DNA from: Gemmataceae bacterium
GTDB lineage: Bacteria > Planctomycetota > Planctomycetia > Gemmatales > Gemmataceae
Direction of reading: 5' to 3'
Length of the DNA: 20,953 nt
Assembly (NCBI GenBank): GCA_026418875.1
Contig: JAOAAM010000747.1
Coordinates: 1 to 20,953, forward strand
This document shows, in pieces, positions 1 to 20,953 of this stretch; the first letter of the stretch is position 1, and each line of letters opens with the position of its first letter. The notes under the pieces are model-generated. The model made no database searches. It was not told the DNA's origin and saw only the letters and a list, made by a program, of their open reading frames with translations. The position numbers were made by a program, and so were the translations under genes.

Positions 1-609
1 CGTGGGAGCCGCAAACCCAGAGTTCGCTCCCACGACGCAGAATGCTCCCAAGGTTGATCTCGCCATCCCCCCAACGGATCCAAGCCACGCAGCAAGCCTC
101 GCCGTGGAGGAATCGATTCGCATCGAACGCCGCCAACTTCCGGTTGAATCGTTGACCAGCATGAACATCGTCGATCGAGACGACTTCGCTCTCCTCGCGG
201 TCTCGTGATTCAACGCTTGCCGTTGCCTCCAGATCGCGGCAAACATCCGGCACGAGTGGAGGCGTCGTCATCTCGGGAGCCTCGGTTGGGACGTCGGCTG
301 CCCCCGGAGCGACAACCCAAACCGACTCGGCACACCCCGAGGGATTCACGACGGGGGGTTCGAGCCGAAACAGCCCCAACTCGCTCGTGAAACTGTAGCA
401 TTCTCGCCACCAAGGTGCGGGTCGCGGCAACCAACGTGGCAGGGCGGGCACCCGGCGAAACGGACGACTCGCCGATCGGCCCCCGCTCGACTCCCTCGGC
501 TTCCATGGCAGGACAAACATCCCACGGGCCTCGAAATCGCTAGGGTGGTTTGTGCTGTCGCCCAAGGGTACTTCGATCGCCGGAAACGGGCAAGGTCAAC
601 GCGGGGCCC

Positions 610-629
610 ATCGGACCTGGAGGTCCGAT
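610..629. promoter_or_regulatory. Perfect 8-bp hairpin / inverted repeat
   Basis: ATCGGACC (610-617) and GGTCCGAT (622-629) are exact reverse complements around a 4-base TGGA centre. No T-run follows it on the plus strand, so a canonical intrinsic terminator is unlikely. It lies about 290 bases upstream of the cytochrome start and could be a protein-binding site or a structured leader element. Function is not determined. Confidence 0.35.
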
Positions 630-685
630 TCTCAAGTCCACGGAACGGCGGGTATCGAGTTCCAAATGCCATTAGAACGATGGAT

Positions 686-719
686 TGCGGAGTCTAATGC
701 GGAGTCTAATGCGGAGTCG
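686..719 (+). repeat. 12-bp tandem repeat, about 2.8 copies
   Basis: The unit TGCGGAGTCTAA occurs perfectly at 686-697 and 698-709, followed by a partial third copy (TGCGGAGTCG) at 710-719. The unit is a multiple of three, and in the frame that runs into the cytochrome it would read as repeated Asn-Ala-Glu-Ser. The segment lies upstream of the preferred start codon, so it is probably non-coding and reflects replication slippage. Confidence 0.7.
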
Positions 720-917
720 AAGCTGCCTTTCAAGTGTCGGTTCGGCGTCGATCGGCGATGTCCGCAGCGACTTCCAAATGCGCCCCGAGTGACCTTCGCG
801 ACTACGAGACCTCGAACACCGGACGCCCCACGTCCAGGCAAATCGCTCTCGCCGGGGAGGAAAAATTCGGTTATCGTGGCATTGTCCACCCCCGGGGTTT
901 GTCGAGCGAGGAAGGCC

Positions 918-2648
918 ATGGTTCCGCACACTGCAAGGATGAATCGCGTGTTGCTCTGGCTGCTGCTGACGATCGCGGCGGCGGGTTCCGCCGGGATCCT
1001 GTTGGCACGGCGAGGGGCCGAGGAGCGAGCCTCGAACGTCGCCCCGGCGGTCGCGGCCATCCTGCCGGACACCTTCGACGAATTCACCCAGCGGCACCTG
1101 CCCGCGTGGAAGGGTGAAAAACCCGAATTGGCGATCCTCGTCACCGGCCAGCAGCACAACTACGAAGCTCCCTGCGGCTGCACCGAACCGCAGTATGGCG
1201 GACTGGAACGCCGCTACAACTTCATCACGCAACTTCGCTCTTACGGCATCCCGACCGTGGCGCTGGACCTGGGCGACATGTACGCCTCGGGCCGGATCGT
1301 CGAGCAATCGCGGTTGAAATACCGCGTGTCCATGAAAGCTCTCGCCTTGATGGGTTACGACGCCATCAACGTTGGGCCGAATGAATTTCACTATCCGCTG
1401 ATCGACGCCCTGGCGGAGACCATTTTGAATGCCAAGGTCCCGTATCAGATCCTCGCCGCCAATATCCCGAATAAGGACGACTACCCCGGCGAAGACGGAT
1501 CGATGCTCAAGGACTTCCGAGTCATCCATCCACGAGGGACCAAAGTTCGGGTCGGTGTGGTGGGCACCTTGGGTAAGTCCGTCGTCGATGCGATCGTCAA
1601 AAGGAACTCGACCGCGCCGTTCGCCCGGAACATCGATGCGATTCCAGCCGCCCTGCGGGCGCTACAAGCCGAACGTCCCGACGTGAAAGTGCTGTTGTAC
1701 CAGGGGTCGAGCGACGAGGCCCGGGTTTTGGCTCAGCAATTGGATGAATTCGACGTCATTGTTTGCCGCAGCGAGGAATCCGAGCCGCGCACGATGGAGT
1801 TGGTGCCGCCGGCCCGGGGCCAGACCAAACGCCCCAAGGCCCGAATCGTCTACGTGGGGCACAAAGGCCGGTACATCGGGGCGCTGGGCGTGTTTCGCAC
1901 GGCGTCCGGCGAATGGGACCTGCGCTGGGAGCCGGTTCGGTTGTCTCCAGAGTTGAAGACCCCTCCCGAAAAACAGGAGCAGCACCCCATCGTCCAGCTG
2001 CTCGAGGATTACACCCGAAAGTTGAAGGACGAGGACTTCGTCGGCAAGATTATCCCGGCACAACACCCGGTGCAGGCGCGTTTCAACGGCAAGCTGGTGC
2101 GCTACGTCGGCTCCGAGGCGTGCAAGGACTGCCACCAGGCGGAGTACGAATCTTGGGACGAATCGCGCCATGCCGGAGCCTATCCCACGCTTTGGGAGCA
2201 CCCGAAATCCAAGCCGCCGCACAACCGCGAGTTTGATCCGGAGTGCGTGATTTGCCACACCGTCGGTTACGGTTACATGACCGGTTTTCGAGATAACAAG
2301 AGCGGCTACACCGATGTCGAAAAGTCGAAGCACTTGCTGGGTGTCGGGTGCGAGACCTGTCACGGCCCCGGCGGTCTGCACGTCGAACGACCCAACGACA
2401 AGGAAATCGCGCTTGCCCTCAGCCCTTGGAAAGAGCAACCCGACGATTACCTCACCCCGCTCGCGATCAAGGACAACAAATCGCCCGAAGAGCAAAAGCA
2501 GGTATCCACACGGGAACAAACGGTCGCGGATCGGGTCTTCCGCATGTGCTTCCAATGTCATGACACCGACAACGATCACAATTTTCACTTGGGCAAATGG
2601 CTGAGCATTGCCCACGGAAAGGGGCCGACGGTCAAAAAGAAGAAGTGA
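918..2648 (+). CDS. UshA-like domain fused to tetraheme cytochrome c
   Basis: This 576-residue protein probably acts outside the cytoplasmic membrane in electron transfer. After a basic start, residues 9-28 form a hydrophobic signal/anchor (LLWLLLTIAAAGSAGILLA). Residues about 65-370 resemble the 5'-nucleotidase UshA/SoxB superfamily: YGGLERRYNFI, LDLGDMY and INVGPNEFHYP match its blocks. The family GNHEF signature is GPNEF here and no DxH is seen, so phosphoesterase activity is doubtful. A CGC motif sits at 86-88. The C-terminal part has four CxxCH heme sites at residues 402-406, 443-447, 478-482 and 544-548, in cytochrome c554-like arrangement. The start at 918 is chosen because a purine-rich GCGAGGAAGG precedes it and the signal follows; 939 is a possible alternative. 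The CFA-synthase-like gene follows after 38 bases. Confidence 0.85.
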   Translation: MVPHTARMNRVLLWLLLTIAAAGSAGILLARRGAEERASNVAPAVAAILPDTFDEFTQRHLPAWKGEKPELAILVTGQQHNYEAPCGCTEPQYGGLERRYNFITQLRSYGIPTVALDLGDMYASGRIVEQSRLKYRVSMKALALMGYDAINVGPNEFHYPLIDALAETILNAKVPYQILAANIPNKDDYPGEDGSMLKDFRVIHPRGTKVRVGVVGTLGKSVVDAIVKRNSTAPFARNIDAIPAALRALQAERPDVKVLLYQGSSDEARVLAQQLDEFDVIVCRSEESEPRTMELVPPARGQTKRPKARIVYVGHKGRYIGALGVFRTASGEWDLRWEPVRLSPELKTPPEKQEQHPIVQLLEDYTRKLKDEDFVGKIIPAQHPVQARFNGKLVRYVGSEACKDCHQAEYESWDESRHAGAYPTLWEHPKSKPPHNREFDPECVICHTVGYGYMTGFRDNKSGYTDVEKSKHLLGVGCETCHGPGGLHVERPNDKEIALALSPWKEQPDDYLTPLAIKDNKSPEEQKQVSTREQTVADRVFRMCFQCHDTDNDHNFHLGKWLSIAHGKGPTVKKKK

Positions 2649-9583: not shown

Positions 9584-9633
9584 GGAACAAAACGCAGGTC
9601 TCCAAGGTGTGGGAAGTGAAGGATGGGCTCCGC

Positions 9634-10839
9634 ATGATCCGCGTCATCGGTCTTTTCATGCTCGTGTTGGGTGTCGTCGGCGCTGTTTACGGGGACGAAC
9701 CGCGGGCTGTTTCGTCGGATAAGTTTGCGGCAATTCATCGCATGATCAAGCGTCAACCGGGCGAGTGGCCGTGGGCGGAGTTACCGTGGACCATTGATTT
9801 TGCCGATGCACAGCGGAAAGCAATTTCTGCGGGCAAGCCGATCTTCGTGGCCTTGGCGGCGCAAGGGAGCCCTGTGGGTTGTCTCTGAAACGGTTTTTTT
9901 GAGAGCCGTGCGCTCCAACTGACCGACCCGGAAAACCTCGCCGCGATCGAACGAGATTTCGTGCCCTACGCTCACTGTGGCTTCCCTGGGACCAATAAGT
10001 ACATGGTGGTCACCGGGACGGGAAAGGTACTGGCCGAGCATGATCGATACCCCGCCGAGGTCATCCGCGAGGGGCTGCGGGCCTGGGATCAATTGCCCGA
10101 GGCGGAGAGGCGCCCCCGGCGAGTCTCCGGCGTGCCCCGCATCACGGCATTTCCCAAGCCACCTGAACCGCCCCCGGGATCGATCATTCTCCGTGCTTAT
10201 ATTCGTGCCTTGGAGCGACATCCCGATGGAGACCTGACCTGGACCGGGCCGATTGCCGTCGCCGCCGACGATTACAACTTTGCCCCCGAACCGCAACTCG
10301 ACCACGTCTGGATCACCGAAGCGGAATGGAAATCGATGATTCCCGTCGATCCGCAGGTCGGCGATGTCGTGCGTGTCCGGTCTGGCGTGGCGCATCGCAT
10401 CGCGAGGTTCCACCTGATCGACAAAGCTCTCGGATGCGGCGTGTTTCTCTGGGAAAAGGCCCGTGCCGAGATTCGACTCAAGGTCACGGCAGTTAGCGAT
10501 CGCTCGATCCAAATGGATCTGCTCGGAAACGCATGGATCGGCAAAAACGGGGATTATCCCGTCAACCTCCAGGGGCGTCTCACGGTGGACCGAAGCCGTG
10601 GGGAGTTCACTCGTTTCGACATGATTGCCCTCGGCAAGGATGACGGCGACTTCCGCACACCGGAAGAGCGAATGCAGCGGAACAGTTTTTGGTATCGTGT
10701 CGGTCCCCAAAGCAAGGTCGTCATGGCGATCGCGTTTGAGCTGATTCCAGGGACCAAGCCCATCGATCGCGTTCCTCCCTATGCCTTGATGTTTGATAGT
10801 GAGAGGAATTATGGGCAGCCATATTTCGACGCGAGATAA
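9634..10839 (+). CDS. Candidate secreted selenoprotein with in-frame TGA (Sec85)
   Basis: A single frame runs from ATG 9634 to TAA 10837-10839, interrupted only by TGA at 9886-9888. If that TGA is read as selenocysteine the product has 401 residues. Residues 1-20 are a signal peptide (MIRVIGLFMLVLGVVGAVYG), so it is exported. Residues about 55-120 look thioredoxin-like: a helix (DFADAQRKAISAG), strand KPIFVAL, then Cys83-Leu84-TGA85 at the position of a redox motif, followed by NGFFESRAL and a later FVPYAHCGF. The C-terminal 280 residues are unrecognised. AAGGA at 9618-9622 supports the start. Coding character and frame continue unchanged across the TGA, with no frameshift, and hairpin-forming sequence lies directly 3' of it. 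The downstream part has no independent Shine-Dalgarno or signal. The alternative is a fresh nonsense mutation. No Sec machinery lies in the window. Confidence 0.7.
9889..9916 (+). promoter_or_regulatory. Candidate bacterial SECIS element
   Basis: Two mutually exclusive folds start right after the TGA. In one, ACGGTTTT (9890-9897) pairs with AGAGCCGT (9902-9909), including two G-U pairs, around a TTTG loop. In the other, GAGC (9903-9906) pairs with GCTC (9912-9915) around a CGTGC loop that begins 19 bases after the TGA. In bacteria the SelB-binding hairpin must lie in this interval and usually has G or GU in the loop, so the second fold is the better positional match. Neither is diagnostic by eye. 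Confidence 0.4.
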
Positions 10840-18380: not shown

Positions 18381-20894
18381 TTACTTGCTCAGTAATTTTT
18401 CGACTTGGGCCAGCGTATCCTCGAAAGTCTTCCGCAGCCGATGTCCGGCGGGGAGTTGCTCGATCAATGGTTTGGCCGACTTCAGCAAGTCGAGCGCTTC
18501 ACCGGCTCGCTCTTCCCCTTGCAGGGCGAGGCAGGCCGCGAAATTGTGCTTGAACGCGGCGATGATGGGATGGTCTTCGGGAAAAGCCTTGGGTGCTCGG
18601 CGGAGCAGTTCCCGATAAACTTCTTCCGCAGCGACGAGATCACCCTGTTTCAGCAAGTGGTTGGCCCGGAGGTTGAGAGCGTCCACGGCGGAGGGGCTGA
18701 AAGGACCGTGGACGCTCTCATAAGTTCGCTGCAATTGCTGAAGGCGCTTCTCGGTTTCTTCGTACCGATCCGTCTCGCTCATTTTTCGAGCGATCGTCCG
18801 CAGTGTTTCTAGAGTGTCCCGGTGATGCGGTCCGAGCAGTCTCACCTGCTTCTCGTAGATGGCATCAAGTCTCTCGAACAGGTCCGCAATCTCGGGGCTT
18901 TCGCGTGATTGCAGCACCAGCAACAAATGCTGTGCCCGGAGGGATTGTTGCGTCTCGTCCTCAGATTGAAGCTGTGCAAGCTGAATCACCCTTTCGAAAC
19001 AGGAGATGCCCTCCGCGACTCGGTCGGCGCTGAAATGGACTTCGCCGAGATGGAAAAGCGCGTTGATCGTATCGGGGTGATTGGGACCTTGGATGTGCCG
19101 TCGGATCTCCAGGGCGCGGCGTGCGTGGTGATCCGCCACTTGGAGCTTCCCTAAGAACAGATACGCTCTCACCAACGTCAATCGGAGCGCGGCCTCGACG
19201 AGCGGTTGATCGGCCAATTGGCCCGAATCGATCTGCTTCGAGGCTCGATCGAGGACCGTCACCAGAGAAACATTCGGATCCGAGGGCAAGCCGCCGACCA
19301 CTTGCTCGGTCGTATCGATCTTCTCGAACAGATCCTCACCGATGAATCGGGCCAGGGCGCGATGTACTGCCGCTTCGGCTTGGGCCTCGCGCTCGGCCCG
19401 AATGGCTCGGACCCAGCCCGTGATACTGATGATGAGACTGAGCAACAATAACACGAGGAATAGCAGTGCCGTGGCCACCTTCCCATAATGGCGATGCATG
19501 AACTTCTTCAGGCGATACACCGCGGAGGGGGGGCCGGCCTTGACGGGCAAATCGTTGAGGTAAGCTTCCAAATCCGCGGCCAACTCGGTCACGCTGGCGT
19601 AGCGGCGATCGCGTTCCTTCTCCAGGCATTTCATCACGATCCAATCCAACTCGCTGCTGACGGATCGTTTTAGTTGAACGCGCGATCTGGTAGCTCCAGA
19701 TTTGTTCCGTTTTTCGGCCTCGGAGATGCGATGACTCGGCCGCTTAGGGACGACCTCGCGAATGGTGCGGGCCACTTCGTCCAACGAGCCGCGCAACTCG
19801 CTATGCCGCGAGAGAGGTAACTCGCCGCAAATCAATTGGTACAAAATCACGCCCAAGCTATAAACATCGGCGCGAACGTCGATGTCGATGTGACCGGAAA
19901 TGACTTGTTCCGGTGCGACGTACTCCAACGTTCCAATCATAACGTGTTGGGCCGTGTAAACGGTCTCGTCGATCAGACCGTGGATGAGAGCTTTCGCTAC
20001 GCCAAAGTCGATGACCTTGGGGACGGCTTGGCCGTCCAGGATCGTCACAAGAACATTGGATGGCTTAAGGTCTCGATGGATGATCCCCTTTTGATGAGCG
20101 TGTTGGACGCCTTGGCAAACCTGGATGAATAATTGCACACGCTGGCGAATGTCAAAATTTTCACGGTCGCAGAACTCGGTGATGGGCAAGCCACGCACGA
20201 ATTCCATGACGAAGAAGGGCCGACCGCTCCCGGTCAGGCCGCCGTCATAAACCTTGGCGATGTTGGGATGGTCCATCAATCCCAACACTTGGCGTTCCTG
20301 GGCGAATCGGGCAATGATTTGCTGCGAATCCATGCCCGGCTTGATCACCTTGAGAGCGACGCGACGGCGAACCGGCTCCCGCTGTTCCGCAACGAAGACC
20401 ATCCCCATACCACCCACGGCCAGACGCTCGAGGATGTGATAACGCCCAGCGATGGTATCACCGACATGGATGGTGCCGTCATCCTCTGTATCCTGGTCCT
20501 CCTTTCGCAATTGCGGGCGAGCCGGTGCAAGTGGGGGATTCGCCTTCGCTCCAGCATCTGTTTTTGGTTCGGCATTCGCCAAGCGTCCGGAATTGGCATT
20601 GGCGTTGGCGTTGGCGTTGGCGTTGGCGTTGGCGTTGGCGTTGGCGTTGGCCGCAGCGTTCACCTTCACTTGAGCGTTGGCTTTGTCTTCTCCATTCGCG
20701 TTGGCTTCTGTGTTGGATTTGTCGACGGCTTGGTCTGAGACGTTCAAACGCAGCGTGGTTAATTCTCGAACCAATCGTTCCAGCTCAGGCTGAAGGTCGG
20801 GATGTTGACGGCAGAATTCTTCAAAAACTCGATCCGCGTCGCTTTCGGTCAGCAGTCGGCGACGCGCATCGGCCAGAATATCATGATTGGACAT
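18381..20894 (-). CDS. Receptor-type Ser/Thr protein kinase with TPR-like C-terminal region
   Basis: This 837-residue transmembrane kinase has a planctomycete-typical layout. Residues 1-50 form a small helical domain (ILADARRRLLTESDADRVFEEF-type). Residues 51-140 are a disordered Ala/Asn/Lys linker with (Ala-Asn)10 at 82-101. The kinase domain (about 150-450) is canonical: glycine loop LAVGGMGMVF (158-167), Lys182, HRDLKPSN (273-280), DFG (296-298), APE (327-329). One membrane helix lies near 473-496, and residues about 560-837 carry TPR-like helical repeats (AALRLTLVRAYLFLGKLQVA, NALFHLGEVHFSADRVAEGI) predicted outside the cytoplasm. It probably senses through protein-protein contact and phosphorylates an intracellular target. 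ATG 20894 is preferred, with GGGAG 12 bases upstream; an in-frame TTG at 20912 is possible. The stop lies 277 bases from tetR. Confidence 0.92.
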   Translation of the reverse strand: MSNHDILADARRRLLTESDADRVFEEFCRQHPDLQPELERLVRELTTLRLNVSDQAVDKSNTEANANGEDKANAQVKVNAAANANANANANANANANANANSGRLANAEPKTDAGAKANPPLAPARPQLRKEDQDTEDDGTIHVGDTIAGRYHILERLAVGGMGMVFVAEQREPVRRRVALKVIKPGMDSQQIIARFAQERQVLGLMDHPNIAKVYDGGLTGSGRPFFVMEFVRGLPITEFCDRENFDIRQRVQLFIQVCQGVQHAHQKGIIHRDLKPSNVLVTILDGQAVPKVIDFGVAKALIHGLIDETVYTAQHVMIGTLEYVAPEQVISGHIDIDVRADVYSLGVILYQLICGELPLSRHSELRGSLDEVARTIREVVPKRPSHRISEAEKRNKSGATRSRVQLKRSVSSELDWIVMKCLEKERDRRYASVTELAADLEAYLNDLPVKAGPPSAVYRLKKFMHRHYGKVATALLFLVLLLLSLIISITGWVRAIRAEREAQAEAAVHRALARFIGEDLFEKIDTTEQVVGGLPSDPNVSLVTVLDRASKQIDSGQLADQPLVEAALRLTLVRAYLFLGKLQVADHHARRALEIRRHIQGPNHPDTINALFHLGEVHFSADRVAEGISCFERVIQLAQLQSEDETQQSLRAQHLLLVLQSRESPEIADLFERLDAIYEKQVRLLGPHHRDTLETLRTIARKMSETDRYEETEKRLQQLQRTYESVHGPFSPSAVDALNLRANHLLKQGDLVAAEEVYRELLRRAPKAFPEDHPIIAAFKHNFAACLALQGEERAGEALDLLKSAKPLIEQLPAGHRLRKTFEDTLAQVEKLLSK
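20593..20652. repeat. Hexanucleotide tandem repeat (TTGGCG), 10 units
   Basis: Ten consecutive 6-base units occur; the eight from 20599 to 20646 are identical TTGGCG, flanked by TTGGCA (20593) and TTGGCC (20647). On the minus strand it encodes (Ala-Asn)10 in the linker of the receptor kinase. Because the unit is six bases, copy-number change keeps the frame and only alters linker length. Confidence 0.95.
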
Positions 20895-20953
20895 GGCGCA
20901 CCGCACTCCCAATGAGCCGAGCCGCTCTGAAGCGAGCGGCGATCGTTATCGAA

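Follow-up and report, generated by a model that had tools for sequence, protein, structure and literature searches.

Does the single TGA that interrupts an otherwise open frame end the protein, or does it encode selenocysteine (Sec)? The question is raised by a gene in the window, the whole analysed stretch of 20,953 nucleotides of Gemmataceae DNA. Its frame runs on the forward strand from ATG 9634 to TAA 10839, and its only in-frame TGA, at 9886–9888, is codon 85. As discussed below, sequence comparisons make it very probable that the gene encodes an exported selenoprotein of 401 residues (9634–10839), in which UGA 85 would be read as Sec through SelB and tRNA-Sec with the help of a downstream hairpin.

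The gene is laid out as follows, all on the forward strand. A GAAGGA sequence at 9618–9623, noted by eye 5′ of the ATG, is a possible ribosome-binding site. Residues 1–20 (9634–9693) look like a signal peptide by eye and contain a helix at residues 3–18 in the predicted structure; the protein is therefore probably exported. A predicted thioredoxin-fold domain covers residues 46–155 (9769–10098) and includes the motif Cys83-Leu84-Sec85 (CxU; 9880–9888), with the TGA directly after Cys83-Leu84 as first annotated. A predicted bacterial Sec insertion hairpin (bSECIS) follows at 9899–9918, with the loop CGUGC at 9907–9911, and a β-rich C-terminal domain common to the family spans approximately residues 181–385 (10174–10788). 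Elsewhere in the window, inspection by eye identified a cytochrome-c-like protein whose first half resembles a phosphoesterase and which contains several CxxCH motifs (552–2648, forward strand), and a serine/threonine-kinase-like protein in which a long Asn-Ala repeat precedes the kinase-like part (18381–20912, reverse strand).

The initial annotation proposed that the frame is broken by the TGA alone and is coding on both sides. Each side on its own matches the family profile: the part 5′ of the TGA at profile positions 1–115 (E 2.5e-29), and the part 3′ of it with an E value of 7.9e-71. As the window protein is itself one of the 46 rows of this profile, the independent test is the search with the plain protein, in which relatives were matched over both parts, and this bears the proposal out. 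The GC content by codon position is also similar 5′ and 3′ of the TGA.

The joined window protein was used in a six-frame search of 99 genomes, its own included, and 34 genomes matched. From all 34, 59 loci (30 returned by the search and 29 fetched by place, leaving out a short C-terminal fragment in G004) gave 60 family frames, one of which (L098) is unaligned at the motif. The codon-85 column holds TGA in 55 of the 59 family genes, counting the window gene and some near-identical copies from sister species; the other four have Cys (L031), Ser (L022), Asp (L092), and Arg (L093). In the 46-row alignment, the relatives are 22–34% identical to the window protein, and a TGA column kept at such distances lies far beyond chance. 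The family thus shows a conserved in-frame UGA at one site with coding sequence on both sides. Several genomes carry more than one Sec paralogue (five in G005 and four each in G004, G020, and G031); two family genes are adjacent at L094, and one contig (G139, C42) has at least three family matches with TGA.

Named genomes gave a similar picture. A scan with the window protein as query found no relative among them. A second scan used only two patterns, one with Cys codons in place of Sec, and is thereby limited to one subfamily. It confirmed 79 loci, titled almost throughout Planctomycetota or Verrucomicrobiota, and within this subfamily TGA occupies the column in 80 of 80 family frames, with no Cys form among them. 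This set overlaps the first one (e.g., L134 and L088 match at 100% and their contigs are equally long). One member (L208) comes from the named strain Limnoglobus roseus PX52, in a record titled complete genome. Family genes also occur in assemblies titled Candidatus Kuenenia stuttgartiensis (L146), Akkermansia muciniphila (L174), and Rhodobacteraceae (L210), which are likely binning or naming errors. When 392 genomes from the phylum were searched with the family profile, 224 had a match at E ≤ 0.001; many of the matches were weak and may be other thioredoxin-like proteins. Among the matches listed, 118 span profile positions ≤60 to ≥300, of which 109 contain TGA (one also TAG) and nine do not; at the column, these nine have Ser (six), Asp (two), or Pro (one). 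Where the column was checked, in 30 returned loci, TGA was present in 31 of 31 family genes.

These data bear on the simplest alternative, i.e., that the TGA is a true stop in a broken gene, a product of sequencing error, or the boundary between two separate proteins. Database proteins might seem to favor it, as 63 of 66 homologues (P0002–P0067, from the best 8000 candidates scored plus a further search) consist of the C-terminal part alone, and the set of Sec machinery genes in the host assembly is incomplete (see below). Aligned to the profile, where Sec is position 85, these 63 start after the Sec column, and P0048 and P0060 end at positions 83 and 84, just before it; P0031 alone spans it, with Gly. 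P0002 is the fragment of the window gene itself. Such starts are what is expected if gene callers cut at real Sec codons, and they agree with the earlier prediction that standard callers would miss the join; from these truncated starts we infer that the closest homologues, P0003–P0014, carry TGA as well. A true stop is, moreover, hard to reconcile with a TGA that keeps its column in 55 of 59 and in 80 of 80 cases, Limnoglobus roseus PX52 included, and with coding that continues in frame into a conserved domain. We give it a very slight chance.

A second alternative is that a reassigned code or a suppressor tRNA inserts an ordinary amino acid at the TGA. It draws on the members without Sec, in which Ser and Asp are commoner than Cys at the column. 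Among 57 family genes with their stop in the fetched stretch, however, TGA is the stop in 25 (TAA in 18, TAG in 14), which means that TGA is not globally reassigned, and a genome-wide code change was rejected on this ground. TGA likewise ends eight of the 12 other gene-like open reading frames listed in the window, TAA the remaining four. The family also tracks the Sec machinery, and a hairpin with a loop G at a fixed distance from the UGA is conserved, both discussed below; decoding as an ordinary amino acid has scarcely any probability. The preferred reading, Sec at codon 85, makes specific predictions for the RNA and for the host genome, to which we now turn.

The hairpin is numbered from the U of UGA as nt 1, which places the apical loop at nt 22–26. 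In the window it lies within the coding sequence, starting ten bases downstream of the UGA, with a GAGC/GCUC stem, a single bulged A at 9902 (nt 17), and then UUG/CAA; in the loop, nt 23 is G9908 and nt 24 is T9909. The bSECIS model, as given in the available text of PMC13188914, has a loop of 3–9 nt with G in one of its first two positions, an upper stem of 4–16 bp, a UGA-to-loop distance of 16–37 nt, and a folding energy at or below −7.5. The window hairpin agrees with this model in having G second in the loop, a spacing of 18 nt, and a 4-bp stem followed by the bulge and 3 bp; a 42-nt segment folds at −12.4 kcal/mol. Of the sites U17, G23, and U24 noted for the E. coli fdhF SECIS in the part of PMC8659212 that was available, G at nt 23, mostly U at nt 24, and the placement in a coding-sequence hairpin loop after the UGA are shared, whereas the bulged U17 is not general in the family and is replaced by a bulged A at nt 17 in the window fold.

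Across the family, 135 genes were reduced to 99 once near-identical sequences were removed. G is found at nt 23 in 96 of these 99 nonredundant genes and in register in 93; in L011, L089, and L094, it is present while an inserted codon shifts the sequence that follows, and in L099, L101, and L102, which do not have G at nt 23, a hairpin is seen by eye slightly further on. Codon choice at the loop follows the same pattern. In the first set, 52 genes have an Arg codon in the loop and 44 of them use CGU, compared with 13.0% of 1417 downstream Arg codons; in the nonredundant genes not titled Verrucomicrobiota, CGU accounts for 56 of the 62 loop Arg codons. In Verrucomicrobiota, it is AGG that prevails (20 of 31 loop-site Arg codons versus 11.0% of 780 other Arg codons in the frames), giving the loop AGGUU, so that G at nt 23 is kept. 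CGU is barely enriched at the loop site in Verrucomicrobiota alone (9 of 31, P 0.048), and P values are overstated because related genes are not independent.

Pairing in the stem points in the same direction. In the 73 genes with CGN at nt 22–24, 94.9% of the cells for the four inner stem positions hold a formed pair, compared with 22–60% when the partner is slid by one to three positions, and the outer three of the four positions are each filled by several pair types. In the 20 AGG genes, each of the same four pairs is formed in 20 of 20. Relative to synonymous resampling, a 24-nt window over the hairpin has a mean z of −1.34 in 55 genes, with 17 at a quantile of ≤0.05, while 306 control windows have a mean z of 0.09, with 13 at a quantile of 0.05 or lower. 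The corresponding test on 48 nt is weak (mean z −0.35 versus −0.04 in controls).

If codon 85 is read as Sec, the genomes that carry the family would be expected to have the Sec machinery. The markers used were SelA (at about 396 bits or more), SelB over its cut-off, and tRNA-Sec. At least one of them is present in 33 of 34 family-bearing genomes versus 38 of 65 others (Fisher P 1.4e-5), and all three in 25 of the 34, the genome of the window counted among the family-bearing ones; in one family-bearing genome (G057, 88% complete), none was detected. SelB in many genomes of family f1 matches, among the matches listed, over only about positions 2–350 of the 581-position model, in frames of about 550–840 residues (e.g., G056:C180, G017:C30, and G038:C7); the C-terminal SECIS-binding part may be divergent in these relatives or appear as a separate weak match. 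One genome (G036) has two tRNA-Sec matches (C322 and C15).

In the host itself, the check proposed in the initial annotation was a search for selA, selB, selD, and tRNA-Sec. SelA is a clear equivalog (557.8 bits versus a cut-off of 267.9), while selB, selD, and tRNA-Sec were not found in the assembly, which is 83% complete and in 816 contigs. A genome lacking these genes had been named in the initial annotation as evidence against Sec. Several candidates were set aside. The host matches to the tRNA-Sec model are tRNA-Ser, -Leu, -Val, -Arg, and -His according to ARAGORN and so are no evidence for tRNA-Sec; the SelB-like match G000:C418 is IF-2. A typed tRNA-Sec pattern that allowed two mismatches gave one host match, with two mismatches, and scattered ones in six other genomes, and the sole match to a relative's tRNA-Sec stretch used as a DNA query was 44 bases long and lay outside the tRNA. 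The best host match to the SelB profile has an E value of 2.6e-14, while values of 1e-20 or better are seen in 97 of the 99 genomes, presumably owing to EF-Tu-like proteins where SelB is absent. With a host match this low, an EF-Tu-like gene seems to be missing from the assembly too, and we read the missing selB, selD, and tRNA-Sec as assembly incompleteness. On the assumption of independent gaps, the absence of three or more of the four genes at 17% each would have a probability of about 2%, which counts against the preferred reading.

The same observations could mean that the gene is a selenoprotein gene by descent, that selB and tRNA-Sec have been lost in the genus, and that the window copy now yields only fragments. 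Finding only selA out of the four host genes fits such a loss, as does a second genome of the genus (G001), which has SelA and SelD and in which SelB, tRNA-Sec, and a family match all went undetected. Yet the two assemblies are only 83% and 75% complete, the host selA is intact, the hairpin and its CGU loop codon are intact in the window, and close homologues keep the protein downstream of Sec at 49–84% identity. Loss in the genus is therefore improbable, with a small chance of being correct. Collectively, TGA conservation, the downstream hairpin, and the association with the Sec machinery support the original proposal of one 401-residue protein with Sec85.

What would a Sec residue do at this position? 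The proposal of a thioredoxin-like protein is supported by the predicted structure, in which residues 46–155 form a thioredoxin fold around the active site. Foldseek searches against the PDB with the whole model and with the C-terminal domain gave no match at E ≤ 0.001. In a weak match to 3ira (E 0.004), the Sec column faces the first Cys of a CHWC motif. The motif among the 55 TGA genes is CxU in 25, CU in 25, and UxxC in two, and five have no Cys at −1 or −2. In the window it is CLU followed by NGF, which departs from the classical CxxC or UxxC active site, and the second Cys position of CxxC is mostly Gly in the family. The first Cys of a thioredoxin active site is the nucleophile. The most likely mechanism is that UGA 85 is read as Sec by SelB and tRNA-Sec, directed by the hairpin; that this Sec replaces the first Cys of the active site, the second Cys of CxxC being lost; and that the Cys one or two residues before Sec probably pairs with it as a selenenylsulfide. 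The protein may then be an extracytoplasmic thiol/selenol oxidoreductase or peroxidase, and the β-rich domain may bind a substrate or partner. The C-terminal region had been described as novel; it is common to the whole family rather than peculiar to the window gene. Neighboring genes are common only to small groups of the 79 named loci (at most 13), and the example from the largest group looks like a spurious frame. A frame resembling a methionine sulfoxide reductase (MsrB/MsrA) was noted by eye near the family gene at seven of these 79 loci (L156, L188, L192, L195, L199, L203, and L207).

To follow the Sec column through the family, a midpoint-rooted FastTree phylogeny was built from 113 members, comprising all 14 non-Sec members found and sampled Sec members. 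Parsimony places Sec at the root and requires eight changes between Sec and non-Sec (mean of 13.5 with shuffled labels). The 14 non-Sec members have Ser (seven), Asp (three), Arg, Gly, and Cys (one each), and Pro or Asn depending on the alignment (one). With TGA in nearly all homologues and Sec at the root of the tree, residue 85 behaves as expected for a Sec position. The initial annotation had named Gly or Arg at this position as evidence against Sec; homologues with these residues do exist, as rare derived members among Sec-containing ones. Exchange between Cys and Sec has been described for many families, according to the available part of PMC13188914, and with Cys in only one of the 14, change to Cys is rare here, unlike in many of those families. 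There is perhaps an even chance that the family ranks among the most widespread and most duplicated selenoprotein families of bacteria, was already present in the ancestors of much of Planctomycetota, occurs in Verrucomicrobiota as well, and has a Sec that Cys essentially cannot replace. On that reading, lineages that lose Sec would turn to Ser, Asp, or another residue, since a thiol could not perform the chemistry, or a selenium role outside that of thioredoxins.

The gene had also been assigned to an unrecognised family. A scan of 46 + 10 + 10 proteins (61 distinct, 10 from Verrucomicrobiota) against NCBIfam release 20 is in line with this assignment, as no model reached its cut-off in any of the 61. 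The closest candidates are two (seleno)protein models. NF041383 (VPGUxxT) shares a thioredoxin-like N-terminal core, which nine of 46 members match weakly, but the best of them scores 23.5 bits against a cut-off of 275, covers profile positions 5–75 of 287, and has a different motif; the window protein has no match to it. NF041199 (Trx7/PDZ) has, by its name, a Thioredoxin_7-type domain with Sec, but the best member scores 16.3 bits against a cut-off of 300, the motif here is CxU or CU rather than CxxU (Table 1 of PMC13188914), and no PDZ match in Pfam was found among 46 members at E 0.1. Filing the family under either model was rejected, with scores so far below the cut-offs. The CxU motif in a thioredoxin-like protein recalls Sec.1 (PF13192; CxU according to Table 1 of PMC13188914), but PF13192 matched none of the 46 members at E 0.1, which sets the two apart by Pfam model only.

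Pfam Thioredoxin_7 gave weak matches in 13 of the 46 members and none for the window protein. Thioredoxin_7 (PF13899), DUF255/DsbH (PF03190), and DsbD-γ-like (3f9u) domains use CxxC; in the present family the first Cys is Sec, the second is mostly Gly, and the partner Cys lies upstream of Sec. The planctomycetes P1 and P2 also use Sec and have Sec-insertion genes, but the selenoproteins named for them in the available text of PMC4807772 are FdhA and FmdB, not the present family. Compared by name, none of the families that the 2026 review PMC13188914 lists in its Table 1 fits, and a description of the family was not found in open-licence papers. With no NCBIfam release 20 model passed and no match by name in that table, the exported thioredoxin-like selenoprotein family appears to be new.

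The family adds selenoproteins that are cut short by gene callers and that reach four or five Sec paralogues in certain genomes, and it may partly account for the retention of selA, selB, and tRNA-Sec in its hosts. Many cultured planctomycetes are aerobic. According to the review PMC13188914, aerobic bacteria rarely retain selenoproteins, and if the hosts of this family are aerobic, it would bear on that statement. Moreover, with Cys forms as scarce as one in the 14 non-Sec members found, the family would be a natural test of what selenium, rather than sulfur, does.
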